The notes under the pieces: generated by a model
Databases searched by the model: none
Told to the model about the DNA's origin: nothing
What the model saw: only the letters and a program-made list of their open reading frames with translations
Shown: in pieces, positions 2,606 to 50,309 of the stretch
Layout: each line of letters starts with the position of its first letter
How positions within the stretch are numbered: position 1 is the stretch's first letter
From: Odiellus spinosus
Taxonomy: Eukaryota; Arthropoda; Arachnida; Opiliones; Phalangiidae
DNA length: 64,000 nucleotides
Assembly: GCA_963920705.1 (NCBI GenBank)
Contig: CAWUCO010000001.1
Location: 1,201,982-1,265,981, forward strand
Direction: 5' to 3'
Position numbers and translations under genes: made by a program

Positions 2606-2898
2606 TTTGATTGTAGTCATAAATGCTGAAAAATATTTTATTTGTGTTTGAACTGTTAACTCTGTTAAATAAAAGCAAAGCTCACCCTGAAATTTACTCG
2701 CTTCGCTAATGCCACTTTTTTTCTGAAAATTTAAATTCCACCCTCGAAAAAAAAAATTCATCAGCGTGCCAAATTGGTGTATCATCAAAAGCAGTGTAGA
2801 TCTATTTTGCCATCCGCGAGCTGCCTTTTCGAATGCTCTTTACAAAAATCTGTTGAATATTATTGAGCGAAATATGAAGAGGGTTGGACGGAATGTAT

Positions 2899-4799
2899 TT
2901 AGCCGCGCTTGTTTTGATTCGATGGTTTCTTCGAGAAGCGTCTTCTTACTTGAAATAAGAGTATTTCGAAGAATAGGCAGATTGAAGCGACGCTAAATCC
3001 GCATATCCAAATCAAGAATATTAACGACACTTCGTCAATGGTCTGGGCGCTGGCTGAGGTCATGAAAGTGCCTTTACCCTTTGCTAGCCAAGTTCGCATT
3101 CGAAAATCGTAAAATCTCCGTTTTCTTTGATCTTGGCCAGTTTCGAAATATATTCCAATACTTAAAAAAAGAATCTTGAACTTTAAATAGACACGCAACC
3201 CGTTCAGAATACCTTTCTCATTGTATACACCCCTCTAAATAAATGTAAACTTCCTAAAAAGTCTCTCCTCACGCTGTGTGGTGGTTCGTTCGGTAAAGAT
3301 GCGAAACTTATTTAACCACGTATTCGTAATTGTTAGCAAGACGCGCCAATATGTTTTTTTTTTTGACGAGATAAATTTCGTAAAGTCGCCACCACAGCGC
3401 GTTGTAAATGCTAAATTCCCATGCCTTACCTTCCTGTTTTTTCTGATATAGAGGTGTAGTCCGCAAAATACTCGTTAGACCTCGTCAAAAACTAAGTTCT
3501 AATTTGTCGAAAACTTACAGATAATTCACTTCTTCCAAGATTGGCCGCGGTAGTTTCTTATTGTAAATAAAATGTCCATATTGGGTTAAATACGTCTTTT
3601 CTCCGAAATATAGTCTTTTCGCGCCGGGTAGGAAATTTTTCGCCATCGTGGTCAAACGGTAGTAGTGAAAGATCGCGTTTTTCATAGTGGATGGAGTGGA
3701 CACGAAATAGAATCTCGGGGTACCGTTCCGAAACATCTGAAACAATGCAGGGTGGTATCGTCGATAGAAGATCGCTTCCTTCAACATCTTATCCATTAGT
3801 GGAAAAGACTTTCGATTATCCGAAGCATAACCCGCAAAGACTCCATCAGCGTATAATGCGGGGATAGAACCAGGATACATCTTTAAATCTTCGAGTTTGT
3901 CTATTCGAATATTCTTTGAGATCATGAATTCGCTCTTTAAATTGCCCGTGTAAGCTTTCATTATGACCATTGTGCCCAATATCCAACCACTCAGCAGAAG
4001 TTTCGCCGATAGTTGTCGCGCAAAAATATCCGGAGCTATTTTAACATGTTTTAAGTAGTTTTGTTAATAATATTTATTCAAGAATCCATTTAAGACTGTT
4101 CAAGAACTGTAGAATCTCCTCGTAAACTAAAAACACTTGGGGAGGTTAATAAAGATCAATTTCTATCTCTATCTAAAAGGGCACTTTAAGTTTGGGTTAA
4201 TTCTAGTTTCCAAAATGAAGAATTGGAAAAAACCGATAACGATAATACAAATTATAGAAAATTTAAAGATAATTTTTAAAATCGCGTTAAATTTTGTAAA
4301 AACGTACTTAAATGCAAAGCAAAATGCTGTTCCGCGAAGTGGAAAGACTCCAAGAGGGATACTACGCGCTTATCTCTATAAAGGAGTTAAGAACCAAGAG
4401 GGAATACGGGTACAATTCTACCTTCTTACGATCTCGGCCGATCTGAAAGGGTTCTTGGTATATACGATGGCTAGAATGGTTCATGACGGATACTCAACTG
4501 TTCATTAGAAGGTTTGAAGCGTAGTACCAGATGTATTCCAAGCATCGAAAACGATTCGCGAACTTCAAGCGAATGAAGTTCATTTTCAAAATTCCGCAGA
4601 CGAGAGACAATACTAGCAGACTGATTAACAACATCATCCAAACAGATCCTTCAATGCCCGCCAATGAAAATCTTTTGCCATCACTGACCGTGGGTTTTAC
4701 GATGGTTATAATCTTGTATTCTTCGAAAGTAATTTGGGGGGTGAGGTGGATCAAGTCGCAAAACTGGCCTCCGAAAGGTGTAGTAACTGTATCAACAAT
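2899..4799 (-). CDS. Ionotropic receptor (IR) chemoreceptor gene, 3' half
   Basis: Three exons resemble arthropod IRs, ligand-gated cation channels of chemosensory dendrites related to iGluRs. Exon 4799-4499 holds the end of S1 and hydrophobic M1 (IEGSVWMMLLISLLVLSLVC). Exon 4035-3519 holds M3 and the S2 ligand-binding lobe (YTGNLKSEF). Exon 3160-2899 holds M4 (DEVSLIFLIWICGF). The donor at 4498 (GTTGAG, phase 1) fits the acceptor before 4035. The donor at 3518 is a consensus GTAAGT, phase 2. The last exon is odd: its most IR-like reading before M4 (a KIKENGDFTIF stretch) is in a different frame from M4, while the frame that fits the splice phase is open but less IR-like. Upstream S1 exons were not found. 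It may be functional or a recent pseudogene. Confidence 0.72.
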
Positions 4800-4849
4800 C
4801 TGCAAGATGTGTACAATTATAATTTTGATAAACAGTTCTATGTCCATGG

Positions 4850-7800
4850 AACCTGTTTTGGAAATGGCTAAATCTTCTCGATTTACACCTTATCATCTGA
4901 AAGGTATTCCATTATTTATTGGATAGTTTGAAATATCGATGTTTAGCCCTCAAAATCTGTAAATACAAATCTTAAGTCTATTTAAAATTTTTTCAAATAC
5001 TAATCACTGTAAAAATTTGGAGCCATTTCGCTCGTTCATTAGAACGCGAGATAATAGGTATGGAAACGATAAAATTTCGATAAGTTATTTTTAAGCAAGA
5101 TTCGTTTATCTCTCGTGGTATAATTATCAAAATTGCATCTAACTAAAGAAGATTTCAATTTAAGCGAAAACCGCGAACTGTTAGAAATTGCGGTTCGCTT
5201 GATAATTGGTACGGCAGTTGGCAAATGACTTTTTAAAAATCACCATCCTCTCACGGAGCACGAGCGTCTTTTGGTCATGACATTGGCAACAAACCAATAG
5301 TTTGCCACTATTATAGCCGCGTTCACACTAGGCCTTGGAATCAATTTAAATGTTTTCAAAGGGTTTCGCTTAAGTCGCGTGAACGGAAAACCGTCTTTTC
5401 TAGAATCGATTTGATTCGATTTCTCGAAACTGCTTCGGGAACCAGTTTCGTACCAATGCGATTTCAACAACCGATTGATGAATCGATTTTATAAAGATAA
5501 TGCATGAATGCGTGACGCTTAAAACTATTCCTGGCGATTTGAATAACGGTTTGATTTCACCGTTCAAATCGATTAATCGATTAAGAAATGCTAGTCGCCC
5601 TTTCTTCGTAGAAATATAGTATCCGTATTTAAGAAATGTTGATACTTACACCATGATATACAACGTCGAAAATATCGTCATCTAATGTATGAGACGTCTT
5701 ATTGGCTCGTAACGATGCTATGGCGTCTCTCAATTTTACAAATACGAGACTGAAATTTTTTAACATAATGAATTTTGATGACGAAAATTTTCTATCGAAC
5801 ATTTATTTATGACTCGATAACCTATGAATTGAATTTTTTCACTTTTAAAATTGTTACGCAACGCTTAGTTTTTTTAAAAGATTGTTCTGGCCATTTATAA
5901 GGACGGTATTTTAGGGTCAATAGCTAGTATTATAAAAGTTCACTTCGTCCCAACCTTAAAAAGGGCAACATCTTCCATAGAAACGGGTTCTGTTTAACGT
6001 CTCTTTTTGTTATTTTCAACGTTGGAAATAATATAGATATTCCTATACTTAAGGACAAAAAAAGACAAATAAACGCGCTGAAAATCTTGAGACGAAAGAT
6101 GCTTTAAGCGACTAATTAGCGTATAGAATGTTTCCTAAGTACGTGTTGTTTTTACGCAATACTAGCTATTTGGAAAATCAATCAAAAACGTTTTCAGGAG
6201 TGGTGCGGAAATGATTGGTCAGATTTGCATTGAGTTGAGATCCCAAATTTACAAAAGATCGTTATTGGATTTGCTGCATTTGCAAATGTATCAGCTCATC
6301 TTCGAGTATTGATGAATTCGGAATTTCCATTCTCATCAACCAACTTTCAGGGGCTACGGCCATTGGGGGACAAATATTACAAAGAATCATCGCGACAGAA
6401 GGCGTTACCGAGTAATAATAATAACAACGTAATTAAGTTATTAAAGTATACGAACAATTATTCGGTGCCGGAACGATTAAATATATATATAAATTAATCA
6501 AAAGTTTAAATTCAAATGTCATATATAATGATAAATAGATGGCGTGCCTGGCCTCTCTCTTATATAGTAAAACAAGTTTACCTAAAAAACCGGTACTATG
6601 AGAAACGAGTTGAGATAGCGCGAGGGGGCTACCGAGTACCGACGAGTATGACTCTCGCCATAGCTTAGCCAATCAGAATGGGAACTACGAAAGCGTCACC
6701 TCTTAACAGATCCGCGCGTAAAGATGTAATCCAATAGCTTGCTACTTTTTATCTATCCCCCTATTTTCGTGGCTAACTACCAATTGTAGTTGATTTTACC
6801 GTTCTCCGGAAAACTTTATCCTATCCTTTAATGAAATAATGGTCTTACGTGACGTTTGATAAGTTTAATAAAACATATTGCTTGGCCGAATCAATAGATC
6901 TTAATTGTTCCAGACCTCGAAGGAATCCCCTAAGACCGTTCTCTCTCCAATTTTCATTATCCTGACGAAAATTAATTATAATTAATTGTACAACATATTT
7001 TACTACTTTTCTAGCGAAGCCAACCGAGGGTATTGCAATAAAAACAGAATAGATGGCATTGCCGATTGCTTTCGTGTTTAGTCTACGTTGTCCGAACCAA
7101 ATTCGTATTTCTACAATCGCGGGGTAAAGCCAGTTTCCCCTTTAAAACGTTTTCAAACCGGGCAATTTGGTGGGAACTGGTGACACGTCTCAAAGGATAG
7201 TTAAAATAAGATGATAAAGGACATAGCAAAACCTACACACCATTGTAAACACCTGAAGTCTATGGGGTTCCATGTACCATATTTTCCATGTTTGTCACGT
7301 TCATTTGTACTGATGTGCCCATTCACTTGGACTGTTGTGCCTCTTCACTTGGACTGTTCAACCCCTTCATTTCAGCAGTTGGGCCCCTTCACTTATTTAA
7401 ATTTTTCAAGTAATCAAGCGTGACTATTTGTTTTCAGTCTTTAGATGAGATGAATGTATAAAAATTGGTTTTTGAGGGAATTGAATGTTCGGGGATCTAT
7501 GATGTGACTGACTCGCATTACTGGCGTCTCTATTCCAGAATTGTCAGTCAGCTAATCCCTCTATAGTTCTTCCAATTTTTCATTACTTCATTCTCCCTAA
7601 GATTGACCAAGAACTAGCTAGTTTGGATAATCCGCCTGGTTTAAACCAATTTAAAGCGAGTCTGTCCCCATTTGTTTTCGAATGCCTATTGATTTTCTTT
7701 TCTTTTATAATATTATTATAACGCCGTATTCAAAATATTATACTTCTTGGTTGAGGAGTTCTTAAAAAACTTCAAAATGGAAATGTGTCTTTCAGGATTA

Positions 7801-13468: not shown

Positions 13469-13472
13469 ATAC

Positions 13473-13960
13473 TGTAACCGTCTCCCGTATGGGATCTCTC
13501 TTTATCAGGATGAGAGAATGGTTACAGCTATTTAACCCAGTTAGTGGTTCAACCCCTATCTTCGCTGTTTTTGTTTTTACGCTATTACAATTTTAATTTG
13601 TTATAAATACCTGATTATCTTCTTCCGACGAGGAGGTCTCGCTAGACGAAACGTCTTTCGCCCACCTATGTTCTCTAGACATTTCCAATAAAAGATTCTC
13701 AAATTCTTTTCTTTGAAAGATTTAATTCTTCTGGTTGTAATACAAAATCGACCGTATACTTGACTTAAAGTATTTTTAAAATGAAAAAGCTTTTCCTATA
13801 TTAAACTCAAGGTGGTTCTCTGTTCAGAGAATATATGAGAACTGACCTCTTCTATATCCTTTTAGAAGGATCTCTCAAAACTTTATAATTGTGGCGGTCA
13901 TCACCAGGGGGAGATAATCGGGGGTTCTTTTTCTAGGGTAAACTTTTGGGGCTAGACATA

Positions 13961-14000
<40 letters not shown>

Positions 14001-14011
14001 TGACCGTCACA
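13473..14011 (-). repeat. 3' LTR of the gypsy element
   Basis: 539 bases, nearly identical to 22984-23526. In element sense it starts TGTGACGGTCACA, a near-palindrome, followed by a long poly-A run, and ends GGTTACA. A 68-codon open frame at 13390-13596 runs across its outer edge and is an accident of the junction. Confidence 0.95.
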
Positions 14012-14022
14012 ACCTCCCCCTC
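14012..14022 (-). other. Polypurine tract
   Basis: In element sense the bases just upstream of the 3' LTR read GAGGGGGAGGT, directly abutting TGTGACGG. This is the expected plus-strand priming site. Confidence 0.8.
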
Positions 14023-14106
14023 AAAAAAAAAAGTTAACAAATTATAGGAGCATTTATGCCCCAAAAACAAAATATATAGAGAACAAAATTAGAGTTTTGT
14101 TGACGT

Positions 14107-15261
14107 TTAAATGGGACAGGATGAGCTTCCTCCAGTTGGGGGGTCTTCTGGACCTCGAGGTAGGTTCTTCGGGAGGTTTTTGGTTCTTTTCATTTTTTCC
14201 GCCCTCTTCGATTTTAGCTCTCGAATTCGTTGTCGCAGTTGGTATCGATGTGGGCACCATTTTGCAAAATGTTGTCCGAATACTCCGCATGCTACACATG
14301 GGTCGTTTTTCCCAGGGGTTTTTACTATCGGCCATCCTTTTTCGTCGATAGGGTACCATTGCACCTCTTCTTTTCTCGTTATCCCTGGCCAGACAACAGG
14401 GAAAAATTGTCGACCAATGGGAGCCGTTGACTGCATGGGCGGAGGGTTTCTTTTGGCCTCATTCGATAATATAAGAAATCTGTGGGACGGAACAGGTAGG
14501 GGTCCGTAAGCGCTTGTAGAGGGTGTACCTTGTCCACTTCTAAATTGGTTTTCTCGTGGTGAGAGAGGGACTGTTTCCGGATTTCGATGTCTCTCTTGGG
14601 AAGAACTTATAGTTGGAAGGCTTATGTTTCGTCTTAGAGCTAGACGTCGTTCCGGAAGTGAGTTCTCAGGTGTCGCTATAGACAAGTAAGTATCTCGTGA
14701 TTGCGGGGTAGGTCCCATCATGATTTTTCTTATTTCGGACCGCCCTTCTATTTCCATCTTGGAGGTCTCACTTTCATTGAAAATCGAATAAGTTACTTCT
14801 AATCGTTGAGTTCGTAAGCGTACATCACTTGAATGAATAAGAGTATTCATTTCTTCTCCGGAGTCTGGAATCGTTGAGTTGTAATTGTAGTCCCTTATTT
14901 TTGGACGGGTGGATAAATCCCTTTTTTGTTCTGGATTTAGGTCTATTTCCTTTGACACAGGATTCAATTTCGGCGGAGAAAAAGCGGGGGCCATAGCGTA
15001 AGCTCCTTGTTCGGATTCGATTGCATCTTCGAATTGATCCTGAGTTGTTTGAGGTTGGGCTTCCGGTGCTTCCTTCATTTCGCTGAGGGAGCTCTTTTTG
15101 GTTTCTTCCTGGGTAAATTCTTTATACCAGTCCAATAGAATACCTCTACTCTTGTTGAGTCCCACATCTGGTTTACTTGTTTGAATAGCTTTCCCCCTTC
15201 CTGTATTGGTAGACCATCCTGTCTGCGCGTTATTCGCATCGTTATAGGTAGTTACTTCCAT
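14107..15261 (-). CDS. Accessory ORF with a variant zinc knuckle
   Basis: 384 codons from a true ATG to TAA, in the position where errantiviruses carry env. It has no signal peptide, no transmembrane segment and no fusion-protein features, so it is not an envelope gene. The body is hydrophilic and rich in Ser, Pro, Glu and Arg. Near residues 330-345 lies CVACGVFGQHFAKWC, a CX2CX5HX4C knuckle one residue longer than the retroviral CX2CX4HX4C. A Lys/Arg-rich tail follows. I infer a nucleic-acid-binding accessory protein. The ATG sits exactly after a polypyrimidine-AG splice acceptor, suggesting a spliced subgenomic mRNA. No known family was recognised. Confidence 0.75.
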   Translation of the reverse strand: MEVTTYNDANNAQTGWSTNTGRGKAIQTSKPDVGLNKSRGILLDWYKEFTQEETKKSSLSEMKEAPEAQPQTTQDQFEDAIESEQGAYAMAPAFSPPKLNPVSKEIDLNPEQKRDLSTRPKIRDYNYNSTIPDSGEEMNTLIHSSDVRLRTQRLEVTYSIFNESETSKMEIEGRSEIRKIMMGPTPQSRDTYLSIATPENSLPERRLALRRNISLPTISSSQERHRNPETVPLSPRENQFRSGQGTPSTSAYGPLPVPSHRFLILSNEAKRNPPPMQSTAPIGRQFFPVVWPGITRKEEVQWYPIDEKGWPIVKTPGKNDPCVACGVFGQHFAKWCPHRYQLRQRIRELKSKRAEKMKRTKNLPKNLPRGPEDPPTGGSSSCPI

Positions 15262-15285
15262 CTAAAAAGAAAAGAAACCGTCAAT
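15259..15285 (-). promoter_or_regulatory. Putative 3' splice site feeding the accessory ORF
   Basis: In element sense the sequence reads TTTCTTTTCTTTTTAG and then the ATG of the 384-codon ORF at 15261. An upstream ACATTGACG could serve as branch site. Subgenomic splicing is known for env of gypsy-type errantiviruses. A matching donor near the leader was not pinned down. Confidence 0.55.
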
Positions 15286-15314
15286 GTTGTCTCCTTAATA
15301 GGATAGGGATAAGT

Positions 15315-15908
15315 TTAACAAGCGGTAGGGAGTTGTGATCTCTCCCGAGCTGTTGTAATTTTTTCCCAGGGAGAACAAGCTATATGATGGCGTTTAAAAT
15401 CGAAATTGTCTACTGAAACATTTTCTATATTATGTTTTCTTAAATAAGCTTGAACTTCGTTCGGAGAACGCAATCGTTTCCTAGGAGCTACTGGAGGATA
15501 ATAGTATATATCCATAATTGGCTTTCCGGGGTGTGTTGTGTGCCTGTAGCACACTTCTCGACTCCATCCTTTTCTAAAGGGTAATTCTAAGCGTGTCTCC
15601 ATATCAGGTAATAATTCTGGCTCTCCTGTTTCCAGATGTCCTTCGCTTGAAACGTGACCAATTCTGCTTGTACAAGGCACACTTTCTCGTATTCTTCTTA
15701 AATAAGGAATTTCTTTTCTTTGTCGTTTCCTTTTTAGAATCTCTCGCCCTCTTTGTATAGCGGCTTCCAATTCTGGTGGAGACGAAACTTCTCGTTCACG
15801 TTTCTTCGTTTTGGGTTTCGTGTCACTTTCCCTTGATTTTTCTTTTTCCTTTCTCGTACTGAGCGACGTTGATTCCTGTTCTGAGGAGCTTCGACTCGGA
15901 CTTAAAGT
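15315..15908 (-). CDS. ORF with a methyl-CpG-binding (MBD) domain, downstream of integrase
   Basis: An open frame of about 198 codons in the frame one base upstream (-1) of pol. It begins 3 nt 3' of a frame stop and essentially where pol ends (pol stop 15904-15902). The first part is Ser/Lys/Glu-rich, like the pol tail. An MBD/TAM domain follows at about 15599-15390: LPFRKGWSREV, then MDIYYYPP, RKRLRSPNEVQAYL and a closing NFDFKR. By comparison with MBD1/MeCP2, the arginine before the loop, the Asp and Tyr of D-x-Y-Y and the Arg of R-S, which contact methyl-CpG, are all present. The first ATG of the frame is at 15602, right at the MBD. The N-terminal part is therefore probably made only as a fusion to pol, through frameshifting or a one-base indel in this copy. 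Likely role: tethering to methylated chromatin. Confidence 0.82.
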   Translation of the reverse strand, partial: TLSPSRSSSEQESTSLSTRKEKEKSRESDTKPKTKKREREVSSPPELEAAIQRGREILKRKRQRKEIPYLRRIRESVPCTSRIGHVSSEGHLETGEPELLPDMETRLELPFRKGWSREVCYRHTTHPGKPIMDIYYYPPVAPRKRLRSPNEVQAYLRKHNIENVSVDNFDFKRHHIACSPWEKITTARERSQLPTAC

Positions 15909-18900
15909 TTATCCTTTTGTTTTTCAGAGTTCATTGAAGATGATTCTCTTATCCGTTTTTGAGTTTCTACTCTGTCTAGATCTTTATTGGACTCCTTTCG
16001 AGGTGACTCTAGTAAAGATTGCTTCTCCTTGAGTCGTATATCTTCCTTTCTGAGGTCTTCACTTGTCGAAGAACCTGTGTATAGGATAGGGTATTCTTCT
16101 TCTTCCCATTTTCTTCCTGAGGAAATTTCGCTAGAGCTAAGATCCGGGGTTTTTCGTAAAGTTTTCTTGCTTGATTCAGCAGTTGGCTTTGTTGGTGTAT
16201 CCGTGCTCGTCTTCGGTAAAGGTATGTCCTTTGCTAGCGCTAGTCCTGTTGATGGTAAACCAATTTGTTTTGGTACAGTCTCTTGTTGCTTCTTCAATTT
16301 AGCTATTCGTTTTCCTCCTGAATCATCGTCACTGTCAGTTCCTGATTCTGAACTTTCTTGAGGTCGCCTTAGGAGTACGTTTGGGCTCCTTGGTTGGGGA
16401 ATCCTTGGAGGAGTTTTTGCTTCTTTCCTAATAACAGGTGATGGTATTTCATCTTCTGATGACGAAGAAGATATGTATCGACGAGGTCTCTTTTTCCTTA
16501 GATGTCGACGCATACGTTCGCTTGAATCAGTCGCAGGAGCCTTCTTCTTTTCTTGAGATATTTGTCTTTCTTTTGTAAGTACTCGGACTTGCGATCCCGA
16601 GGATCTTCTGTCTTTGTCTCTGTCAGATATTTGCGGAGGTTCTACTTCATTCTCTCTTGGTAAGTTTTCTTCGGGTGGAAGTACTTCCGGTTCCGGAGCA
16701 GCAGGTAAAGGCTGTTCTATTTCCTCGATTTGAATATCTTTCGCATGATACAATTTTAATTGGGCAATGTTTATTGGTCCAATATTTTTTCCAGTAATAG
16801 CGTCTTCCAAAACATATACCAAAGGATTTCGTTTTTCGATTATCCTATAAGGACCTGACCATTTCGGACATAACTTTGCCATCCTTCCGATATTGGCTCT
16901 TGACAGTGGATGAGTCATTTTCCAGACTAGCATTCCTGGTTCAAATTCGAGATCTGCTCTTCGTTTGTCATAATACTTCTTTTGTTTCGCTTGAGCTAAT
17001 CTTGAGAAGTCTCTTGCTAATTTCCATTGTTCTCGTAGATCTCTTAAGGTGTCGGATCGATCTTCAAACTCCTCTACAGGCATTCCAATATCCAAGTCCC
17101 ATGGAAGCCTGGGTTCTCGTCCCATATTCAAGTAAAATGGAGAACGTTTTGTGGTGTCGTGAGGAGTGGAGTTTATAGCAAAAGCTAACGAATTCAAGGT
17201 TTCGTCCCAAGTGCGATGGTTATTTCCTACGTAAATAGAGATGGTTTCTCCTAGAACTCGATTTACTCGTTCAGTCAGATTCGATTGCGGATGATATGGA
17301 GTGGCATATATAGGAGTTATTCGAAATAATTTGCAAGTATCCTTCCATAAGGTTGAGACGAATTGAGTTCCACGATCACTTAGTATTTGCTTGGGAGCGC
17401 CCCATCGACAGATGACCTTCTTCAGAGCTCTTGCGCATGCGTCAGCTGTCATGGCGACTATAGGAACCAGTTCGACGTATTTGGTCATGTAATCGACGAA
17501 TACGATCAAGTATCGGTATCCCTTTCTACTAATTGGGAATGGACCCATTATGTCCACGCCTATTTTATCCCATGGAGCCGTTGGTTCGGTCGACTTCATG
17601 AGTCCGGGAGTACGAGTGTTCCTTATCTTATACTGCTGACATAGGAGACATTCCTTCACGTATTTCGCTACGTCTGCTCGTAGTGAGGGCCACCAAAATC
17701 TTGCTTCTATTTTTGCAATAGTTTTATCTCTTCCGCGATGACCAGCAAGAGGATGATCATGTAGTAAACGTAGTGTCTCTGGTCGGAGTCTTGTCGGAAG
17801 ATATATTCGTTCAGGATGTCTGCCAGTTTCTTTTCTGTATACGAGATTATTTCGTAAAATATACATTCGATCTCGGGGAGCATTTTCTCTTGATAATCGT
17901 TCGATAATTTCTTCCATGCTTGGATCTTCTCGCTGTGCAGTAATGATTTCATTTCTATTGAAGATGTGGAAATTTGCATGTGGAAACGGAGGTAAAACAT
18001 TCTCCCTTGGATTTTCTCTATTTTCGTCGTTGTCTGAGATTCGTAGAGACTCTTCGGAAGTGGATAATCGGTGAAGTGGCATTACCAAAAGTCCAAGTGG
18101 GGCTCTAGATAAGGCGTCTGCTACGACATTTTCAACTCCTTTCTTGTGTATGATTTTAAAATCGAATGTCTGCAGGTACATAGCCCATTTCACCAATCTT
18201 GAATGGGGTTCTTTGAGGGTGAACAGCCACTGTAAAGCCTTGTGGTCCGTAATTACGGTAAACGGAAGTGTTTCCAAATATGGTCTAAAATATCCAACAG
18301 CCCAATAGATCGCTAGACATTCTCGTTCGGTGTTACTGTAGTTGGATTCAGCTTTGGATAATCTTCGACTAGCGTATGCTATTGGTACTTCAACACTATC
18401 TTGTATTTGAGACAGCATAGCTCCTAATCCTGTACCAGACGCGTCGGTTGTTAGGATACAAGGTATATCCGCTTTGTATGGAGCTAACGACGGAGCTGAG
18501 GCAATGGCGTCTTTTATTTGTTGGAAGGCTTTATCTTGATCTTCTCCCCAACGAAATTGTACATTTTTCTTCTTTAGATGGTTGATTGGAGCTACTATCT
18601 CTGAAAATTTTGGAATAAAGCGATGATGCCAACCGGCCATGCCTAAGAATCTTTGTACTTGTTTTAGAGTTTTCGGCCTTGGAAATTCTTGAATGGCTTT
18701 TATCTTCGATGGGTCGATAAATATCCCATTTTCATTGATGATATGTCCTAGGACAATGGCTTCGGGCTTGGCAAAATGACATTTCTTTAGTTGGAGAGTT
18801 AATCCGGCATTCTTTAGGCGATTCATAACGTATTCCAGAGCGTTTAGATGCTCTTCCCATGTTTCGGACGCGATTAGGATATCGTCGAGGTAGACCACGA

Positions 18901-19456
18901 TGGAAAAAGGTTCGCTGTCTCGAAAGATTTCATCCATTAGACGCTGGAACGTACTCGGAGCGTTACAAAGACCAAAGGCTAATACGTTGAACTCGTATTT
19001 ACCGGCGTGGGTAATGAAGGCAGTCTTTGGTTTTGCTTCAGGAGCCAACTCGACTTGCCAATATCCGCTTTTTAGATCCAGAGCCGTAACATATTTTGGT
19101 TTTCCCATTTTGTTTAGGGTTTCTTCTACACGAGGAATCGGGTAAGGATCTTTTATCGTAACTGAGTTTACTTCTCGGAGGTCAACACAAAACCTTGTTT
19201 TGGTTTTTCCGGTTCCGGATCCATCATCTTGTTGAATAATGACTATAGGAGAAGCCCATGGAGAGGTAGATGGTCTTATGATGCCGTCCTTTAGCATTTC
19301 AGAGATATGTTCTTCGATAATCCGTTTCTTGGCATCGCTGACTCTATAAGCTCTTTTATTTATCGGTTTCGCATCTCCTGTATGGATTTCGTGTACAACG
19401 AGGCTTGTATGTCCTAACTTATCGCTGAAGAGATCCGGAAAGTTTAGCAGGAGATC
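15902..19456 (-). CDS. pol: pol: reverse transcriptase, RNase H and integrase
   Basis: Counting from Met at 19297: RT with ALDLKSGYW near residue 73 and the YLDD active site at 136-139. RNase H has TTDAS (Asp285), Glu about 325, ITDHKAL (Asp351) and VADALS. The integrase zinc finger is His515/His520 and Cys550/Cys553; the catalytic triad is Asp582, Asp641 (SDRGTQF) and Glu676 (NLTERVNR). A GPY/F-like module (WSGPYRIIEKRNPLVYVLED) follows. A Ser/Lys/Glu-rich tail of about 250 residues ends at TAA. The frame is open upstream of 19297 to an amber codon at 19459-19457 that separates it from protease in the same frame. RT copies the RNA and integrase inserts the cDNA. All catalytic residues are intact. 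Confidence 0.95.
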   Translation of the reverse strand, partial: DLLLNFPDLFSDKLGHTSLVVHEIHTGDAKPINKRAYRVSDAKKRIIEEHISEMLKDGIIRPSTSPWASPIVIIQQDDGSGTGKTKTRFCVDLREVNSVTIKDPYPIPRVEETLNKMGKPKYVTALDLKSGYWQVELAPEAKPKTAFITHAGKYEFNVLAFGLCNAPSTFQRLMDEIFRDSEPFSIVVYLDDILIASETWEEHLNALEYVMNRLKNAGLTLQLKKCHFAKPEAIVLGHIINENGIFIDPSKIKAIQEFPRPKTLKQVQRFLGMAGWHHRFIPKFSEIVAPINHLKKKNVQFRWGEDQDKAFQQIKDAIASAPSLAPYKADIPCILTTDASGTGLGAMLSQIQDSVEVPIAYASRRLSKAESNYSNTERECLAIYWAVGYFRPYLETLPFTVITDHKALQWLFTLKEPHSRLVKWAMYLQTFDFKIIHKKGVENVVADALSRAPLGLLVMPLHRLSTSEESLRISDNDENRENPRENVLPPFPHANFHIFNRNEIITAQREDPSMEEIIERLSRENAPRDRMYILRNNLVYRKETGRHPERIYLPTRLRPETLRLLHDHPLAGHRGRDKTIAKIEARFWWPSLRADVAKYVKECLLCQQYKIRNTRTPGLMKSTEPTAPWDKIGVDIMGPFPISRKGYRYLIVFVDYMTKYVELVPIVAMTADACARALKKVICRWGAPKQILSDRGTQFVSTLWKDTCKLFRITPIYATPYHPQSNLTERVNRVLGETISIYVGNNHRTWDETLNSLAFAINSTPHDTTKRSPFYLNMGREPRLPWDLDIGMPVEEFEDRSDTLRDLREQWKLARDFSRLAQAKQKKYYDKRRADLEFEPGMLVWKMTHPLSRANIGRMAKLCPKWSGPYRIIEKRNPLVYVLEDAITGKNIGPINIAQLKLYHAKDIQIEEIEQPLPAAPEPEVLPPEENLPRENEVEPPQISDRDKDRRSSGSQVRVLTKERQISQEKKKAPATDSSERMRRHLRKKRPRRYISSSSSEDEIPSPVIRKEAKTPPRIPQPRSPNVLLRRPQESSESGTDSDDDSGGKRIAKLKKQQETVPKQIGLPSTGLALAKDIPLPKTSTDTPTKPTAESSKKTLRKTPDLSSSEISSGRKWEEEEYPILYTGSSTSEDLRKEDIRLKEKQSLLESPRKESNKDLDRVETQKRIRESSSMNSEKQKDKL

Positions 19457-20161
19457 CTATAGTTCCTTCTTCTGTTCGGGTAGCTCTGTTGCTTCGACAG
19501 CTTCAGTTACATTTTTTACCATGATTGGGGAAGGGGGTCCTTTATCTTTGGACCATCCGATGAACTTTAAAGTTTCTCCTTGAATCAAGCAAGTCAAATT
19601 TTCAAAATCGATTTTCATTCCCCAATCTTCTAAGAAATCCTGTCCAAGAATGGCGTCGCATAATAGAGACGGTACGATATGGAATTCATGGGTGAACATC
19701 CGGTTCCTTTGATTCTCGAAAACAATTTCAAAATCCAAAAGAATGGATCCTTTAGTGAAGGTATATCTTCCATCACCCATGACGATGCATTCGGATATCT
19801 TCTCATAAGGGATATACGATTCGCCTCTATACTGTCGTATTTTCATCCACTGATCAGAACTAATCATGGAGACTTCTGCTCCATTGTCTATCCGGGTATT
19901 TAGTTTTCCATGTTCGAAGATTGTTGTAATAATATGAGGTTTTCTTCTTTGCAAGCCCCGTCTTCGTCGTATTGCTGATAATTGATAGGTTTGGGGCCTT
20001 GAAACAGTACGACGGACTTTTTGTTGGGCTATTGATTTGGCGCGGGAGGGCGTTGGCCCAGTTGGCCTCCCGCTCCGATGTTTTCCGGACGAGTCGTTCT
20101 TGGTACTCTGACTGATGGACAGTCTCTCGAGAGATGACCTCTTCCGTTGCAGGTGAAACAA
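19457..20161 (-). CDS. Retroviral-type aspartic protease, in -1 frame to gag
   Basis: About 234 codons overlapping the 3' end of gag by roughly 130 bases in the -1 frame. The listed start is not an ATG, so expression by -1 frameshifting is likely. The active-site segment reads RIDNGAEVSMIS: the usual D-S/T-G triad has Asn as its middle residue. The second conserved motif (ILGQDFLEDWG) is present, as is a flap-like region. The frame ends in TAG, after which RT continues in the same frame. Asn could be a natural variant or an inactivating change. Function: maturation cleavage of Gag-Pol. Confidence 0.85.
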   Translation of the reverse strand: MFHLQRKRSSLERLSISQSTKNDSSGKHRSGRPTGPTPSRAKSIAQQKVRRTVSRPQTYQLSAIRRRRGLQRRKPHIITTIFEHGKLNTRIDNGAEVSMISSDQWMKIRQYRGESYIPYEKISECIVMGDGRYTFTKGSILLDFEIVFENQRNRMFTHEFHIVPSLLCDAILGQDFLEDWGMKIDFENLTCLIQGETLKFIGWSKDKGPPSPIMVKNVTEAVEATELPEQKKEL

Positions 20162-22380
20162 GTAAGATTTGGTTGTAAAACTGTAGGTCTCGTCGGATAT
20201 GATTGTCCTAGAGGTCGAGTAGATGAAGGAGTAATTATTCTTGGTGACCTCGATGGAATTCTTCGAGCTCCTTGAAGATTTGATTGTCCGGTTCTTCTTC
20301 CAGCGGTGTTCAACTGAGTTTGTCTTGTCCTTTGTTCTACTACTGGATATGTTTGAGGAACTTGTTGTGGTTGAATCATATATCCTGTTTGATATGGAGG
20401 TACTTGTTCAAAGGGACCAGGAGTGGTGGTTCGAGCTTGCTGAAATGTATTCGATAATACAGCCGTAGGTTGTTGTTGTTGATAGTTTAGCCATGATGTT
20501 CCAGGTGTTGGTAGTTGTGGATTTCCAGTAGGAGTATATATCTGTGCTGGTGATCCTGCATGAAGTGAACTTGATTGAAGGTTTCCTGTAACAGGATATT
20601 GTATTTGAGGTGTTCCTTTAGGTAGATATATAGCTGGAGTCGAACTAGGTATAGTTGAAGTAATTATATTCTGCGTCGCTGGAGGAGGTTGAATCGTCGC
20701 CGTTGAATATTGGAGAGTCGTTGGATATTGTTGATGTGGAGACTGTTGAACAGATGGTTGAATGACATGAGCAATCATTTGACCTTGAGATGTCCACTGT
20801 GCTGGATATGTTCCGTGTTGAGGTATCGTTGTTCCATAAGTAAGAGTTCTCGTTAATCCAAGACTTTCTTCTAGCTTGAGACAATGATCATGGAGATCTC
20901 CGACAGTAGCGGCACTCATGAAAGTTAGAAAACCTCTAAATTCTGGACGAATATTTCTTCTTATCATATCTTGCAATTCTTTGTCTGGGATCGGAGGGGT
21001 CAAACTTTGGTTAACTCGTGCATAGTGACTGAAAAATTCTTCTATAGTTTCGTTTGGACCTTGAAATCTGAGATTTAGTTCAGCTTTAGCTAAAGCTTCT
21101 TTCTGTTCGGCTCGATAGTGGCGTTTAATTCTCCCTTCAAATTCACTCCATCCCATTGGTTGGGGTAATCCTCTGTACCAGGTTTGAGCTTGAGCCTTTA
21201 ATACCATAGGCAGGAGTCCCATCTTTTGATTTTCTGTTAGTTCGTTGAACTTTGCGAATTCATCTAGATCTCGTAGGAATTCTGAAACCTTTTCTTGATG
21301 TGTTCCATAGAAAACTAGTCGGGCAGGTGGTTCCTTTAAGCTTCGGCCTTTATTCTCCTTCATGACTTTGGTTATGGTTCTCAGCATCGATGTTGATCGA
21401 GGAGATAAAGGTGGAGATAATTGTCCTTGACCTTGACCTTGTCCTGGTGTTCCTTGTATAGGAGATATTCCTGGTATTCCTGTTGGTTTTGGAGCTGAAG
21501 GAAATTGTGAAGGAGGACCCTGTTGATAATGAGCTTGAGTTGGGAACCATCCCGGTTGTGGCTGAGCTGAATATACTTGTTGTTGAGGTAACGGTACTTG
21601 TGACTGATACCATCCTTGATAAGCTTGTGCAGGAGTAGATGTAGGTGGTCCTTGGTAAAAAGTACTCGATGCTTGAGGATGAAATCCCAGAGGATACGTT
21701 GATTGAGTTGTTATTGGTGGATATTGTGGCTGTGTGACGCTTGGAATTTGGTACTGAGCCTGAGGTGGAAGTTGACCTTGAGGTTGCCCAATTGTTGTAC
21801 TAGTTGAAGGAAATTGTCCATAACTTCCAGCTGGATTAATTGGTTGTGTAATTGATGGTGGTTGGAGAACTTGAGGACCCGAAATTCCAAATGCGCCTTG
21901 AGTCGTCGTAGGAAGAAGTGATATACCGGATGGATGAATTGAAGGCGTGGTCACAATTCCAGTGGCCATAGTAGTTGTAGTGGTTGTAGTTAATATTGTT
22001 TGTAGCGAACCAATAGGGTTGGCATGCCTAGAGGCACTAGGTATTGACATACCTAAACCCAATTGGATGTTCCCTACTGTGCTACCAAAAGGTAATCCCA
22101 TCATGGGAGTTGGAAAAATTGGAGAACCAATACTCCCTGTAGGACTTTTTAAATTTGGATATGATTTAACCCTTATTAAACGTCTATGAATCCTTGGTGG
22201 GGAACTTATAGCCGATATATTTGCTACTGAACTTTGAGGACTTGTTATCCCCACTCCAATTAATGGTGGACTTACTACCGGTGCATGTGGGGATAGTGGA
22301 GGACTTATTACAGGTGTATGAGGGGATATAGGTGTAGGTGTAGTTGGTACAATTGTAGTAGGTGGAGAAGACGTCGCCAT
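20029..22380 (-). CDS. gag: gag polyprotein
   Basis: The first ATG of the frame is at 22380-22378 (ATTATGGCG); the frame stays open without ATG up to 22617. About 780 residues follow. Long Pro/Gln/Thr/Ser-rich stretches flank a central capsid-like region (EFLRDLDEFAKF, then AQTWYRGLPQPMGWSEFEGR), typical of the retrotransposon gag family. A single CX2CX4HX4C zinc knuckle (CFTCNGRGHLSRDC) lies near the C-terminus. It assembles particles and binds element RNA. Gag ends in TAG at 20031-20029, with protease in the -1 frame across the overlap. Confidence 0.9.
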   Translation of the reverse strand: MATSSPPTTIVPTTPTPISPHTPVISPPLSPHAPVVSPPLIGVGITSPQSSVANISAISSPPRIHRRLIRVKSYPNLKSPTGSIGSPIFPTPMMGLPFGSTVGNIQLGLGMSIPSASRHANPIGSLQTILTTTTTTTMATGIVTTPSIHPSGISLLPTTTQGAFGISGPQVLQPPSITQPINPAGSYGQFPSTSTTIGQPQGQLPPQAQYQIPSVTQPQYPPITTQSTYPLGFHPQASSTFYQGPPTSTPAQAYQGWYQSQVPLPQQQVYSAQPQPGWFPTQAHYQQGPPSQFPSAPKPTGIPGISPIQGTPGQGQGQGQLSPPLSPRSTSMLRTITKVMKENKGRSLKEPPARLVFYGTHQEKVSEFLRDLDEFAKFNELTENQKMGLLPMVLKAQAQTWYRGLPQPMGWSEFEGRIKRHYRAEQKEALAKAELNLRFQGPNETIEEFFSHYARVNQSLTPPIPDKELQDMIRRNIRPEFRGFLTFMSAATVGDLHDHCLKLEESLGLTRTLTYGTTIPQHGTYPAQWTSQGQMIAHVIQPSVQQSPHQQYPTTLQYSTATIQPPPATQNIITSTIPSSTPAIYLPKGTPQIQYPVTGNLQSSSLHAGSPAQIYTPTGNPQLPTPGTSWLNYQQQQPTAVLSNTFQQARTTTPGPFEQVPPYQTGYMIQPQQVPQTYPVVEQRTRQTQLNTAGRRTGQSNLQGARRIPSRSPRIITPSSTRPLGQSYPTRPTVLQPNLTCFTCNGRGHLSRDCPSVRVPRTTRPENIGAGGQLGQRPPAPNQ
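20080..20086 (-). promoter_or_regulatory. Candidate -1 frameshift heptamer in the gag-protease overlap
   Basis: In gag frame the codons read GAA AAC preceded by G (GGAAAAC). A one-base slip continues directly into the protease frame. It is not a perfect X-XXY-YYZ site, so other positions in the overlap remain possible. Confidence 0.3.
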
Positions 22381-22966
22381 AATAGAATTTCCCTTATTTA
22401 ATTGTAACCTTGATGGGCGTATAATGTTTTGTATATTGTAAGTAGTTACAAGGGGGGGTATCTCTACCAACTGTTCTTCAGAATCGTTTGGCTGTAGTCT
22501 CTCCCAATTAATACTAGTCTCAGACTCAGATGTCAAGGAAGGATTTTTATCTTGTGGGGTGATAAAAGCTAAATTCCGGTTAGGTGACGTCAGTGTTAGG
22601 CCAAAAAGTATTTTCGTTTATTAAATAAAAGTGTTTGAATAACCTGCTGTTAATAGGAAAATATTTCTCAAAATTGTGTGTTTAATTCATCTAATTAAGT
22701 ATTGTTAAAAAGGTTTATAATTATAAATATCAAAATCAAAAGTAATAGATCAAAATGATAAATTCGTGGAAAATTTCCATTAACAAAATAAGGAATTCTT
22801 CAAAAGAATAGGCGAGATAACGCCTATCACCACCCCCACCAAAAAAGACGGGCCAATGTGGGCGAACGCCGAGAAAAAAAACGAAGCCGAGGTCGGGGAG
22901 GCCAAGATGGCGGACGGGGTAGGCGAAAACAAGAAAAGGCGAAAAATGGCGAAGGGAAAGGGGTAT
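22381..22966 (-). other. Gypsy 5' leader
   Basis: Between primer site and first gag ATG. It contains GC-rich sequence near the primer site and then AT-rich sequence with acceptor-like TTTTCCTATTAACAG. No ATG opens the gag frame earlier, so an upstream gag start would need splicing or a non-AUG codon. Confidence 0.5.
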
Positions 22967-22979
22967 GGTCACGGCACCA
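22967..22979 (-). other. Primer binding site, tRNA-His type
   Basis: On the plus strand GGTCACGGCACCA ends at 22979, four bases inside the 5' LTR edge. In element sense this is TGGTGCCGTGACC, complementary to the 3' end of animal tRNA-His, which ends in TCACGGCACCA. tRNA-His is an unusual primer among insect gypsy elements, where Lys, Ser, Arg, Leu and Trp are common. The match is from memory of tRNA-His. Confidence 0.7.
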
Positions 22980-22983
22980 ATTC

Positions 22984-23471
22984 TGTAACCGTCTCCCGTA
23001 TGGGATCTCTCTTTATCAGGATGAGAGAATGGTTACAGCTATTTAACCCAGTTAGTGGTTCAACCCCTATCTTCGCTGTTTTTGTTTTTACGCTATTACA
23101 ATTTTAATTTGTTATAAATACCTGATTATCTTCTTCCGACGAGGAGGTCTCGCCAGACGAAACGTCTTTCGCCCACCTATGTTCTCTAGACATTTCCAAT
23201 AAAAGATTCTCAAATTCTTTTCTTTGAAAGATTTAATTCTTCTGGTTGTAATACAAAATCGACCGTATACTTGACTTAAAGTATTTTTAAAATGAAAAAG
23301 CTTTTCCTATATTAAACTCAAGGTGGTTCTCTGTTCAGAGAATATATGAGAACTGACCTCTTCTATATCCTTTTAGAAGGATCTCTCAAAACTTTATAAT
23401 TGTGGCGGTCATCACCAGGGGGAGATAATCGGGGGTTCTTTTTCTAGGGTAAACTTTTGGGGCTAGACATA

Positions 23472-23513
<42 letters not shown>

Positions 23514-23526
23514 TGTGACCGTCACA
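22984..23526 (-). repeat. 5' LTR of the gypsy element
   Basis: 543 bases. In element sense it starts TGTGACGGTCACA and ends GGTTACA. A TATAAAG lies about 44 bases before TCAGTT, an arthropod initiator with A at 23354 (13843 in the other LTR), so U3 would be about 172 bases. It supplies the promoter for genomic RNA. Confidence 0.93.
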
Positions 23527-23530
23527 ATAC

Positions 23531-42518: not shown

Positions 42519-43271
42519 CTAAGTTAGCCGTCCGCCGCATTGTCTCAAGTGTACTACGCAGGACAGTGTCCCGTACTCAAATGGCGCGAGCTCGCCGAGA
42601 TGATCTCTTATATGTACGGTAATGGTGACAAAGTAGCTTTTACCTAACGGCAAATAATAAGGGAATTCCCGTAATTGGTGTTTTCAACTGGAATAATCCT
42701 TAAAAGAGGGACTAAGGAATCACCCACTATTACATTGTCTACAATATCTGTATAAATGTACAATTGAGAAGGGATATGGCAGTCAATACGCGCTTGTTTT
42801 TCGGCCCGTCCGTTTACATGTTCGGAATCCTCGTAACCCATGATATCGGCGATACCGCGAGGGATGGCCAAAACAGGTTCAGCCGCTTTAGTCTTTAGGT
42901 TGATATAACCAGTCGTAGCGTCATGGAGAAAGCACGCTTGATTCTTAAGGCAGATTTCAACGTCATTAATGATGCCTAATAAATGGTCAATCGATTGATA
43001 ATGACCGGGGGGGCACGTCGATCATACCGAGTTTCGTAACGTTACCCCGGGGAGGTTGAGATGTCGAGCGACGTACGACGTTTACTTCAGCAGCGGTGTC
43101 CTTTTTCACGTTGAAAAAACTAGACGTATATATTAGTTCAACCAAAGCGCATTCCTACGACCCCTTGAGGGCAATTGGATTTGGTAGTTTCGTGACGTAT
43201 GAAGCCATTGTGTTGTCGGGGAAAATATCCATTGACGTATCACTTGGGAGCGTTAGGTAAAGGTCTGACAT
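42519..43271 (-). pseudogene. Polinton structural-type protein (capsid/penton family), broken
   Basis: Starts at ATG 43271, overlapping the integrase 3' end by 32 bases in another frame. Family landmarks in order: LPSDTSMDIFPDNT near the N-terminus; CALVEL after an in-frame TAG at 43157-43155 (codon 39); PPGHYQSIDHLL; LYIYTDIVDNVIVGDS followed by VPLLRIIPVE; and a final PFEYGT...VVHLRQ before TAG at 42521-42519. Two frame changes are needed, one at a seven-G run (43007-43013) and one near 42640. This YIYTDIV...VGD...PLLR protein is common to animal Polintons and I take it for a virion structural protein, but I am unsure which (PX or PY). About 250 codons, apparently full length. Confidence 0.75.
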
Positions 43272-44277
43272 TATCGCTACTGACCCAACAATTCTGGTCT
43301 TTAGGTAGGCCAATAAATGAAACAAAATATTCCAATTTCCCTTTTCGTTTCCTTTTCTTCAGAATTTTGTCTATACTGTACAGGTCGGGTTCCTTGGTTC
43401 TAATGAGTTGAAAAGCGTAAAAGAGCCCCGTTATATCTTGACCATTGTAGTCTTGAAGCCTATACAAATGTGGCGTCTTGTTTTCTAGTACCCCAGTTAT
43501 TTTAAATACTTCGACCGAGAAATTGGCTTCGAAACCTTTAGCGAAAACCTAACGAAGTTTACTAATTCTGACATGGTCACCAGTTTTAAATTTAGCGGGC
43601 TTGACTTTAAGTTTTTTAGCAACCCCGTAGATATTACGATAAACTTGTAAGATGTTCCCGCTATGGACTTGATCAGGCGCCATTTTAATCGTTGAATGCT
43701 TGGCCCCGTTATACGCGGAGATTAAAGTTTGAAGAATATCAATGTAACGCCGGGTATTGTTATGCGTGAAATAACGGAACATTCTCCCTTTGATAGTGCG
43801 ATTAAGCCTTTCAATGAAGGGGGCGTGGTGCGGTTCCGATACCATAGCCGTAAATTTAACATTACTTTTCTTTAGCCAGGCTTGCATTTGAGTGTTTAAA
43901 AATTCAGTCCCACTATCACTGTAGATGCCTCGCGGGACGCTATCGGCGAAAATCTCCTTAAGACCTCGAACGACCTCATCTCCGCTCTTCCTCTTTAAAG
44001 GGATACTGTAGGCTTTTTGCGAGAAGCAATCGATACCCATTAGCAAATATTTATAGGAATCATTGTATTTTGCTAATGACTGCATGTCAGCAAGGTCAAT
44101 TTCAAACCTATCGCCAATATTGGTGACGGGAATTTTTCTTCGCTTAAATTTCTTTCTAGCCGTGACGTGAAGCGTATAAGCTTCTGAACTTTCCAGAAAT
44201 TCTTTCACATTCTCCCTCGAAATACCCTTATCTTTAACGGCCTGGTATACTCGAAAATGACGCCGGATTACTTTCAT
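43240..44277 (-). CDS. Polinton integrase with chromodomain, one in-frame amber
   Basis: ATG at 44277, 15 bases after the upstream gene's stop. The catalytic core shows IDLADM (Asp), IYSDSGTEFLN (Asp) and HAPFIERLNRTIK (Glu), the rve-type D,D35E triad. A TAG at 43551-43549 interrupts an otherwise open frame. Beyond it the same frame encodes the C-terminal chromodomain-like module (KGKLEYFVSFIGLPKDQNCW), ending at TGA (43242-43240). Total 345 codons, normal for the family. It inserts the element DNA with 6-bp duplications. The product here is probably truncated before the chromodomain unless the amber is read through. Confidence 0.88.
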
Positions 44278-44292
44278 CAAAATAAATTCCTT

Positions 44293-44880
44293 CTAGGGTG
44301 TTGATTTGGTCGTTTTGAACGTTAGCCATTCTTGGGAGTTGGGGCTTTTATTTGGTAGCCTGAGCCGTTTTCTAATGGTGTTTACAGTTTTGCTGGTAAT
44401 TTTCGTGGGCGGTTTTTTCGCTTTGCGTAATCTTAATTTTAAGGGCGTCGAACGGGTCGGTGTTGCGAGGGGCGACGGACGTACGGGGGTGGTAACGACG
44501 GAGTGTTCCGGTAAAAACGTCTTAACAAAAGGCGCGAATTCGACCCAGCCTACGGGTTGAGTTCCGAGGCTTTTGCCCTCGCTAAGTTTAATCGTATGAA
44601 AAATTAATTCGCTGATATCAGAATCTTTAACGGCGTGACCGTCGATGACGATGTTACCGTTTATTGCAGACCACGTTACTCTGTTATCGCTTTCTGTCAA
44701 ATGATCGAAAATTTTACGGGCGAGCCCCCTATATTTGAGCGGAAATAAATTTAGCCAACGTTCATAGGGTAATTTACTAATTTCTTTCTTGGTTATATTT
44801 TGGGCTCTTTGTAAAATTAGACTGTATTGTCTCCATTTGGTCCTCGCGTCAGGATCGCGATCATCTAATATATTTCGCAT
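44293..44880 (-). CDS. Conserved Polinton protein, 195 aa
   Basis: ATG at 44880 to TAG at 44295-44293. It begins MRNILDDRDPDARTKWRQYS and contains a segment NGNIVIDGHAVKDSDISELI, then PVGWVEFAPFVKTFL, the pattern of an accessory protein conserved in animal Polintons. The C-terminus is very basic. The frame stays open without stop for about 75 bases upstream (to about 44965), still family-like, so the real protein may start earlier. Function is not known to me; its position between the helical protein and integrase is typical. This gene is intact. Confidence 0.7.
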   Translation of the reverse strand: MRNILDDRDPDARTKWRQYSLILQRAQNITKKEISKLPYERWLNLFPLKYRGLARKIFDHLTESDNRVTWSAINGNIVIDGHAVKDSDISELIFHTIKLSEGKSLGTQPVGWVEFAPFVKTFLPEHSVVTTPVRPSPLATPTRSTPLKLRLRKAKKPPTKITSKTVNTIRKRLRLPNKSPNSQEWLTFKTTKSTP

Positions 44881-45030
44881 TACAGACTCGAGGGTATTTA
44901 AAACAGCTTTTTCTTTCGGCAGGGCCCCTCCGCCCAGCGAGGCGAAATTTTCTGAAGGGTTGGCCCGTTAACATTCTCGGAATTTAGGGGAGTCCGGGTA
45001 TAGGGAAAAGATGCATTTTAACGAATTGTT

Positions 45031-45393
45031 TCATTGTCCTACGAGACTCCCAATGATATTGGCGGCGAGCGGTTAAAGTAACGAGAAGAAGCCACTACCT
45101 TTCTAGTTAATTAATAGATGTTTCTTTTTACGCCGATGTATACGTCGATCTCCAATCTGACGTAGATTTTCCTTATGTCGGGCTAGTTGTAAGGTATTTT
45201 TAGGACTTAAATTTAGATTACCACTTAAGGCGTTTAAAGCTACTTCGCTCAGGGCCTCGATCAATTCTTTGGGAGCAGATTTTAATATACTAAGCCTTTG
45301 GCTACGCTTAACACGACCTAAGGCTGATATAAGGTCGGCGTTACGTTTCGCAAGACTCGAGCGAGTTTTCGTTGTTCGCGCTTTGGGGGCCAT
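45031..45393 (-). pseudogene. Small helical Polinton protein, interrupted
   Basis: ATG at 45393 (MAPKARTTKTRSS), overlapping nothing but lying just after the ATPase end. The core ELIEALSEVALNALSGNLNL with a Lys/Arg-rich region matches the small conserved Polinton protein with a C-terminal hydrophobic segment. A TAG at 45105-45103 cuts it after KKHLLIN. The same frame then continues with family-like Gly/Phe/Leu-rich sequence, a TAA at 45075-45073 and more hydrophobic residues to TGA at 45033-45031. Two nonsense codons in the last quarter suggest decay. Confidence 0.65.
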
Positions 45394-45431
45394 ACCACTA
45401 ATGATGGGATTACCTACGGGGCTGAAGAGTT

Positions 45432-45941: not shown

Positions 45942-45947
45942 TTAAGC

Positions 45948-47127: not shown

Positions 47128-47132
47128 ATAAA

Positions 47133-48719: not shown

Positions 48720-48737
48720 CTTGGAATCTTGGGAAGC

Positions 48738-48774
48738 AACTGATAACTCGACCCAGCACGGTCCGCTATTTATA
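48738..48774 (-). promoter_or_regulatory. TATA-Inr core promoter of the PC4-like gene
   Basis: TATAAATAG at 48774-48766 and initiator TCAGTT with A+1 at 48741, 33 bases apart, about 22 bases before the ATG. The spacing is identical to the promoter at 49646. Confidence 0.75.
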
Positions 48775-48869
48775 CCCTTAAAATCGAATGGGGTCGCCCG
48801 AATTTAGACACCCCTAAAAACTCCGGAATTTTAAATTTGAACAAAAGAAAAGAAGCTTCACAAGACCAT

Positions 48870-50306: not shown

Positions 50307-50309
50307 GTC

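Follow-up and report, generated by a model that had tools for sequence, protein, structure and literature searches.

A methyl-CpG-binding domain behind the integrase of Ty3/gypsy retrotransposons in the arachnid Odiellus spinosus

A stretch of 64,000 nucleotides from the genome of Odiellus spinosus (Opiliones, Phalangiidae; assembly GCA_963920705.1, contig CAWUCO010000001.1, positions 1,201,982 to 1,265,981 of the forward strand; hereafter the window) contains a complete, young Ty3/gypsy retrotransposon flanked by long terminal repeats (LTRs), in which the integrase (IN) is followed by a methyl-CpG-binding domain (MBD). The element spans 10,054 bp (13473-23526) and lies, with all of its parts, on the minus strand. 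In sibling copies, the MBD closes one open frame that runs through the protease (PR), the reverse transcriptase (RT), the ribonuclease H (RNase H), and the integrase, and the pol-MBD fusion is thus supported as a trait of the lineage. We propose, with a probability of about one half, that this MBD reads methylated CpG while tethered to the integrase. Once the pol protein is cleaved, the MBD would stay attached to the integrase through a fast-evolving linker, hold the integration complex at CpG sites bearing 5-methylcytosine (5mC), and bias the landing sites of new copies, or the chromatin engaged, as the chromodomain does in chromoviruses; the cleavage product, the selectivity for methyl-CpG, and the effect on target choice are what we infer here. 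The proposal draws on what the domain is, on the fold predicted for it and the contact residues that it keeps, on the fusion in siblings, on its spread in the genome and the purifying selection acting on it, and on DNMT1-like exons found in the host genome.

An earlier reading of the window, made from the letters alone (the sequence-only reading), had placed an MBD/TAM domain at 15390..15908, with the Arg, Asp, Tyr, and Arg contact residues all kept. Both the identity and the residues were borne out, with narrower limits: the MBD occupies 15390-15596, and 15597-15908 is a linker rather than MBD. The open reading frame (ORF) at 15315-15908 (minus strand, 197 amino acids) matches the Pfam hidden Markov model PF01429 at E=5.4e-12 and 45.6 bits (cut-off 21) over residues 105-173. 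When this ORF was searched as a single sequence against the PDB, it matched the TAM domain of BAZ2B (3.4e-5), also that of BAZ2A, and weakly MBD5. A profile of 31 MBDs (30 gypsy, window included, and one copia, a truncated segment, L002, having been dropped from 32 distinct ones) found 33 distinct PDB sequences at E values up to 0.1, all of them MBD or TAM proteins. Similarly, the AlphaFold model with the window sequence as first row reached a predicted local distance difference test score (pLDDT) of 89.4 and a predicted template modelling score of 0.81, and its Foldseek rows 1-30 were MBD/TAM structures, lower rows being unrelated (E at least 0.3). The window domain can therefore be predicted with confidence to adopt the MBD/TAM fold.

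The contact positions are named after what we take to be R111, D121, Y123, and R133 of MeCP2, and at these positions the window MBD has R, D, Y, and R. Among the 31 aligned MBDs, the first arginine and the aspartate are present in all, the tyrosine in 29 (one F, one gap), and the second arginine in 29 (one H, one L). The complete set is found in 27 of the 31, and 16 of the 17 rows left after reducing the alignment at 80% identity have it; random column quartets were equally conserved in 28 of 100,000 draws. In MBDs, as described in the consulted part of PMC5240623, two arginines touch the guanines and the tyrosine confers methyl selectivity. A host gene that we read as BAZ2-like (L041) has E and C where the element MBDs have D and Y.

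The search space for siblings was the whole genome of 443 Mb (286 contigs). With an MBD query, the best 150 of 284 candidates were scored, and 31 lay in frames listed as longer than 1000 amino acids, a few of these matches being interrupted by a stop codon. Fifteen sibling stretches (L014-L028) were fetched around other MBD matches, and in 14 of them the integrase and the MBD share one continuous open frame of 1257-1706 amino acids; the exception, L014, has a stop between the two, and the L016 frame extends past the MBD. All seven sibling pol frames scanned with Pfam, which were chosen representatives and not a random sample, contain RT, RNase H, the zinc-binding and core domains of the integrase, and then the MBD above its cut-off (22.1-41.0 bits). 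In addition, a partial pol frame (L036) has the MBD after the integrase in the same frame (26.2 bits), and the frame at L021 43-1104 has an MBD (40.7 bits) without any other Pfam family. The order RT-RNase H-integrase, in the window as in the siblings, is that of Ty3/gypsy. A putative aspartic protease precedes the RT; it scores 14.9 bits in the window, under the Pfam cut-off, and passes it in siblings (L024, Asp_protease, 29.4 bits versus 26; L019, RVP, 21.7 versus 20.7).

The window copy itself is broken twice, first by an in-frame TAG at 19457-19459 that splits PR from RT and then past the integrase, where the frame changes, the stop codon of pol lying at 15902-15904 and the MBD frame opening at 15908. 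In the sibling L015, the protease-part frame runs on without the stop. Since the siblings have a single pol-MBD frame, we take the window copy to be an interrupted one, and frameshift translation joining pol and MBD was set aside for the same reason. The pol-MBD fusion put forward in the sequence-only reading thus holds for the siblings and not for the copy in which it was proposed, where the MBD lies in another frame than the integrase.

To gauge how widespread the arrangement is, integrase matches were paired with MBDs on the same contig and strand at most 3.5 kb downstream, irrespective of frame. An integrase query had 2,324 first-look candidates and yielded 117 scored matches, the window and fragments among them. 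Of these 117, at least 83 had such an MBD by the first lists, at least 95 after a second MBD query, and at least 96 once C1:51008 (L082) was added. This last copy had been considered as an MBD-less sister and was rejected as such when direct reading disclosed a divergent MBD, which scores 17.2 bits with Pfam (under the cut-off of 21) and reaches 47.4 bits when a profile built from the 30 gypsy MBDs is used, versus a best of 6.2 in 2000 shuffles. The 21 unpaired copies have integrase identities of at least 90% (five), 70-90% (eight), 55-70% (two), and 40-55% (six). One close copy without the MBD, at C17:6464285-6473317, retains the LTRs of the family (95-96% identical) and has lost about 1,004 bp that cover the linker, the MBD, and the beginning of ORF3; the joined ends overlap by 4 bp, and the loss is a secondary internal deletion. 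No MBD-less relative with a long frame that could root the capture was confirmed, the long frames at C17:12249289, C2:26913130, and C2:26843282 being unread. No relatives were found in IMG/VR, the protein collection, or phage records, collections that may hold few animal genomes. A further integrase copy (C9:892292-893323, minus strand), 99% identical to that of L015, sits in an open frame of 3823 amino acids, far longer than the others listed.

Could the MBD be a private insertion of a host gene, or a passenger fragment devoid of function? The MBD of the window copy is out of the pol frame and one close sibling lacks it through the deletion of about 1 kb, as such an origin would allow. However, siblings with the same order were found: at least 96 of the 117 integrase copies have an MBD nearby, open single frames exist in several families, the domain is under purifying selection, and its tree matches that of RT-IN. 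The private insertion was rejected on these grounds, and we give either version next to no credence.

Over 16 pol frames, mean identity is 0.62 for the RT, 0.54-0.57 for the integrase, 0.44 for the MBD, and 0.26 for the linker. The ratio of nonsynonymous to synonymous divergence (dN/dS) was 0.14-0.17 for the MBD, 0.16-0.34 for the linker, and 0.02-0.07 for RT-RNase H in the four pairs with an MBD dS of 0.1-1, two of which share L021. Of the remaining 12 pairs, five had an MBD dS of 1.5-1.9, with ratios of 0.12, 0.12, 0.18, 0.36, and 0.45 for the domain; saturation affected another five, and the last two had diverged too little (one at 0.33, the other undefined). These ratios indicate that the gypsy MBD is under purifying selection. 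Trees of RT-IN and of the MBD for 14 frames have three clades in common, one of which is supported at only 0.67 by the MBD tree and has a weak internal order. The matching clades fit one old capture followed by co-inheritance, and a synonymous divergence several-fold higher in the MBD than in the RT of some pairs fits some exchange of 3' parts. A mosaic appearance was seen within three groups (L015/L016/L028, L021/L022/L023, and L024/L025), in which synonymous divergence differs several-fold between the RT and the MBD or integrase of the same pair.

A second MBD was found in the Ty1/copia elements of the same genome. In all five copia pol frames scanned, an MBD lies between the SH3-like domain of the integrase and the RT (48.1-57.2 bits), and one of these frames, of 1450 amino acids, contains gag, integrase, MBD, and RT. 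Copia elements with an MBD2-like domain include L045 (418-4767, plus strand), L046, L049, L053, L056, and others, many with open frames of about 1330-1480 amino acids. By profile, the copia MBD scores 69.9 bits with MBD2 and 61.2 with MeCP2, versus 35.7 with BAZ2B, and its model (pLDDT 83.5) has MBD4, MeCP2, and MBD2 as top structure matches, BAZ2 appearing from rank 26. The contact columns of 17 copia MBDs (from 20 matches, leaving out L041, a host gene, and two truncated ones, L042 and L044) have the first arginine and the aspartate in 17, the tyrosine in 16, and the second arginine in 14; the full set is present in 13, and random quartets were equally conserved in 70 of 100,000 draws. The gypsy and copia profiles align with an hhalign probability of 99.6. 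Their opposite preferences, TAM for gypsy and MBD2 for copia, argue for separate captures, so that the two MBDs probably reached the integrase on two occasions, as judged from profiles and not from a rooted tree. Database annotation may also join an MBD with copia-type polyproteins in some arthropods. More broadly, and with somewhat less than even confidence, we suggest that two superfamilies acquired, independently of each other and from different sources, methyl-CpG readers (TAM-like in gypsy, MBD2-like in copia) fused behind the integrase, and that they use DNA methylation as an integration address.

A PF00145 search of the genome found two places, which by eye we read as DNMT1-like and DNMT2-like exons; DNMT3 was not seen among the PF00145 matches. 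The observed/expected ratio of CpG (CpG o/e) is 1.20 in the window outside the element and 0.90 in the element; the DNMT1-like locus has 0.71 and the DNMT2-like locus 0.77, and these lower values at only two genic loci hint at gene-body methylation.

Several observations weigh against a reader of methylated CpG. Targeting or binding of methylated DNA through a pol-MBD fusion had been the suggestion of the sequence-only reading, and while the fusion stands, ten insertion neighbourhoods of 800 bp each had a mean CpG o/e of 0.985 versus 0.911 for ten random places (p=0.79). In this comparison, CpG served as a proxy, the sites were 10 of 30 listed (six gypsy and four copia, taken 5.5 kb past the MBD), and two random samples had a CpG o/e of 0.06-0.07. 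The flanks of the window insertion are rich in CpG (1.36 and 1.46) and not depleted, and the close MBD-less copy on C17 persists as an insertion. MBD4 retains the tyrosine and yet is far less selective, so that the tyrosine alone is no guarantee (PMC5240623, in part). Finally, the nearest match of the gypsy MBD by profile and fold is the TAM domain of BAZ2A/BAZ2B, which has no preference for methylated DNA according to the portions consulted of PMC10783490 and PMC4446428, where the BAZ2A TAM is described as an RNA binder.

This resemblance raises the possibility that the MBD is a TAM-like clamp, which would bind RNA or duplex DNA regardless of methylation and help the integrase or pol to hold the RNA or cDNA of the element, or act as a general chromatin tether. 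The gypsy MBD is predicted to have the extended fold of the TAM type, but does not show the replacement of the methyl-CpG residues: nearly all aligned element copies keep D and Y, whereas the BAZ2-like host gene has E and C. The copia MBD, moreover, is of the MBD2/MeCP2/MBD4 kind. We consider such a clamp unlikely, though deserving of attention.

Alternatively, the MBD could serve against silencing, by binding the methylated DNA of the element itself or methylated host CpG in competition with host MBD proteins, or by protecting or recognizing methylated cDNA, without any choice of target. Elements do exploit the methylation pathway, as seen in retrotransposons that carry a methyltransferase (PMC5890265, in the part available), and the CpG o/e of the window element is somewhat under that of its surroundings (0.90 versus 1.20). 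However, fusion to the C-terminus of the integrase in two superfamilies points to integration and not to a free competitor, and we hold this explanation to be improbable. The integrase-tethered reader of methylated CpG remains the reading that we put forward.

The element in the window has LTRs with TG..CA ends and is flanked by a GTAT target-site duplication, as seen from alignment of the LTR pair and inspection of the ends. Between the two LTRs (543 and 539 bp), the only differences are a single mismatch and 4 nt in the length of an A run, and this near-identity indicates a recent insertion. Its features are, in the order of transcription:

23527-23530, minus: target-site duplication GTAT, upstream copy, from the sequence at the element end.
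22984-23526, minus: 5' LTR (TGTGACGG...GGTTACA), 543 bp, by pair alignment with the 3' LTR.
22967-22979, minus: candidate primer-binding site TGGTGCCGTGACC, from its position after the 5' LTR.
20029-22617, minus: gag frame with a CCHC zinc knuckle (zf-CCHC 8.4e-6, above cut-off; Retrotrans_gag 8.9e-4, under cut-off).
19457-20407, minus: protease-containing part of the pol frame, ending here in TAG (RVP 0.034, under cut-off, and position).
15902-19456, minus: frame of RT, RNase H, and integrase (H2C2, rve, SH3-like), by Pfam (RVT_1 1e-33, RT_RNaseH 1.3e-35, Integrase_H2C2 1.1e-21, rve 1.3e-13; SH3_Tf2-1 under cut-off).
15597-15908, minus: Arg/Lys/Glu/Ser-rich linker part of the MBD frame, from the sequence (26% identity between copies versus 44% for the MBD).
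15390-15596, minus: MBD core (PF01429, 45.6 bits; AlphaFold2 pLDDT 89.4).
15315-15389, minus: short conserved tail past the MBD, SPWE here and PPWE/PPYE in many siblings, by alignment.
15259-15277, minus: pyrimidine tract and AG adjoining the ATG of ORF3, resembling a splice acceptor, from the sequence.
14107-15261, minus: ORF3, 384 amino acids, with a knuckle-like motif C-x2-C-x5-H-x4-C and without a Pfam match, by translation and Pfam scan.
14013-14022, minus: polypurine tract GAGGGGGAGG, from the sequence.
13473-14011, minus: 3' LTR, 539 bp, by pair alignment.
13469-13472, minus: target-site duplication GTAT, downstream copy, from the sequence at the element end.

Scans of the window with Rfam and for tRNA genes gave no matches.

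The ORF3 position is occupied by different proteins. In one gypsy clade, ORF3 after pol-MBD is a TatD-like DNase (L024, 5924-7252, plus strand, 105.5 bits; L021, 2760-4040, minus strand, 78.2 bits; cut-off 27 for both), apparently a captured nuclease at the env position, and the L025 ORF3 (2770-4098, minus strand) is closely homologous to that of L024. A CCHC-like motif occurs in 6 of the 12 ORF3-position proteins read (window 14107-15277, minus strand, L015, L017, L019, L026, and L028), and a pairwise search separated three groups and two unmatched proteins. Elsewhere in the window, by eye, frames at 42647-52430 resemble a Maverick/Polinton (integrase-like, ATPase-like, and DNA polymerase-like) and frames at 3518-4889 (minus strand) resemble an arthropod ionotropic receptor gene. 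Several partial COX1 matches at C17:1112807-4393978, on a contig of nuclear size, are probably nuclear copies of mitochondrial DNA. COX1 is also present on a contig of 16 kb, and this gene together with the order of genes points, by eye, to an arthropod host.

If the proposal is correct, a reader of DNA methylation would give retroelement integration an address of a new class, and these elements would encode natural methylation-guided integrases. Known integrase-linked targeting modules recognize histone marks or chromatin proteins. In most invertebrates, 5mC is concentrated in genes with stable transcription, and some species carry it on transposons (PMC11292947, in part), so that an element with an MBD might be led to active genes or other elements. 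The two apparently separate captures in one genome make the idea testable, and transposons may account for most of the MBD matches counted in such genomes. We found no precedent for an MBD in an LTR element in the open-access papers searched, and one may exist elsewhere; the consulted text of PMC5890265 and PMC6338049 discusses accessory domains of retroelements, including methyltransferases, without the term MBD.

Among known systems, Ty3/gypsy elements with a chromatin reader on the integrase are a familiar kind, and what differs here is that the reader is an MBD. In chromoviruses, too, a chromatin-reading module stands at the C-terminus of the integrase in a Ty3/gypsy pol, where chromodomains set target preference (PMC3605345, in part); in contrast, no scanned gypsy pol frame here matched a chromodomain, and an ORF3 follows pol in most sibling stretches read. 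The TAM domains of BAZ2A and BAZ2B are the top profile and fold matches of the gypsy MBD but are without the methyl-CpG residues R, D, Y, and R that the element keeps. The domains of MBD2, MeCP2, and MBD4 share the fold and the contact residues and are the top matches of the copia MBD, a likeness drawn from sequence and model, whereas the element MBD belongs to a retrotransposon polyprotein. Lastly, like the methyltransferase-carrying retrotransposons (de Mendoza et al., 2018; PMC5890265, as far as its consulted part goes), these elements have captured a piece of the DNA-methylation system of a host; there the piece is a writer, whereas here, with no methyltransferase match in the scanned frames, it would be a reader.
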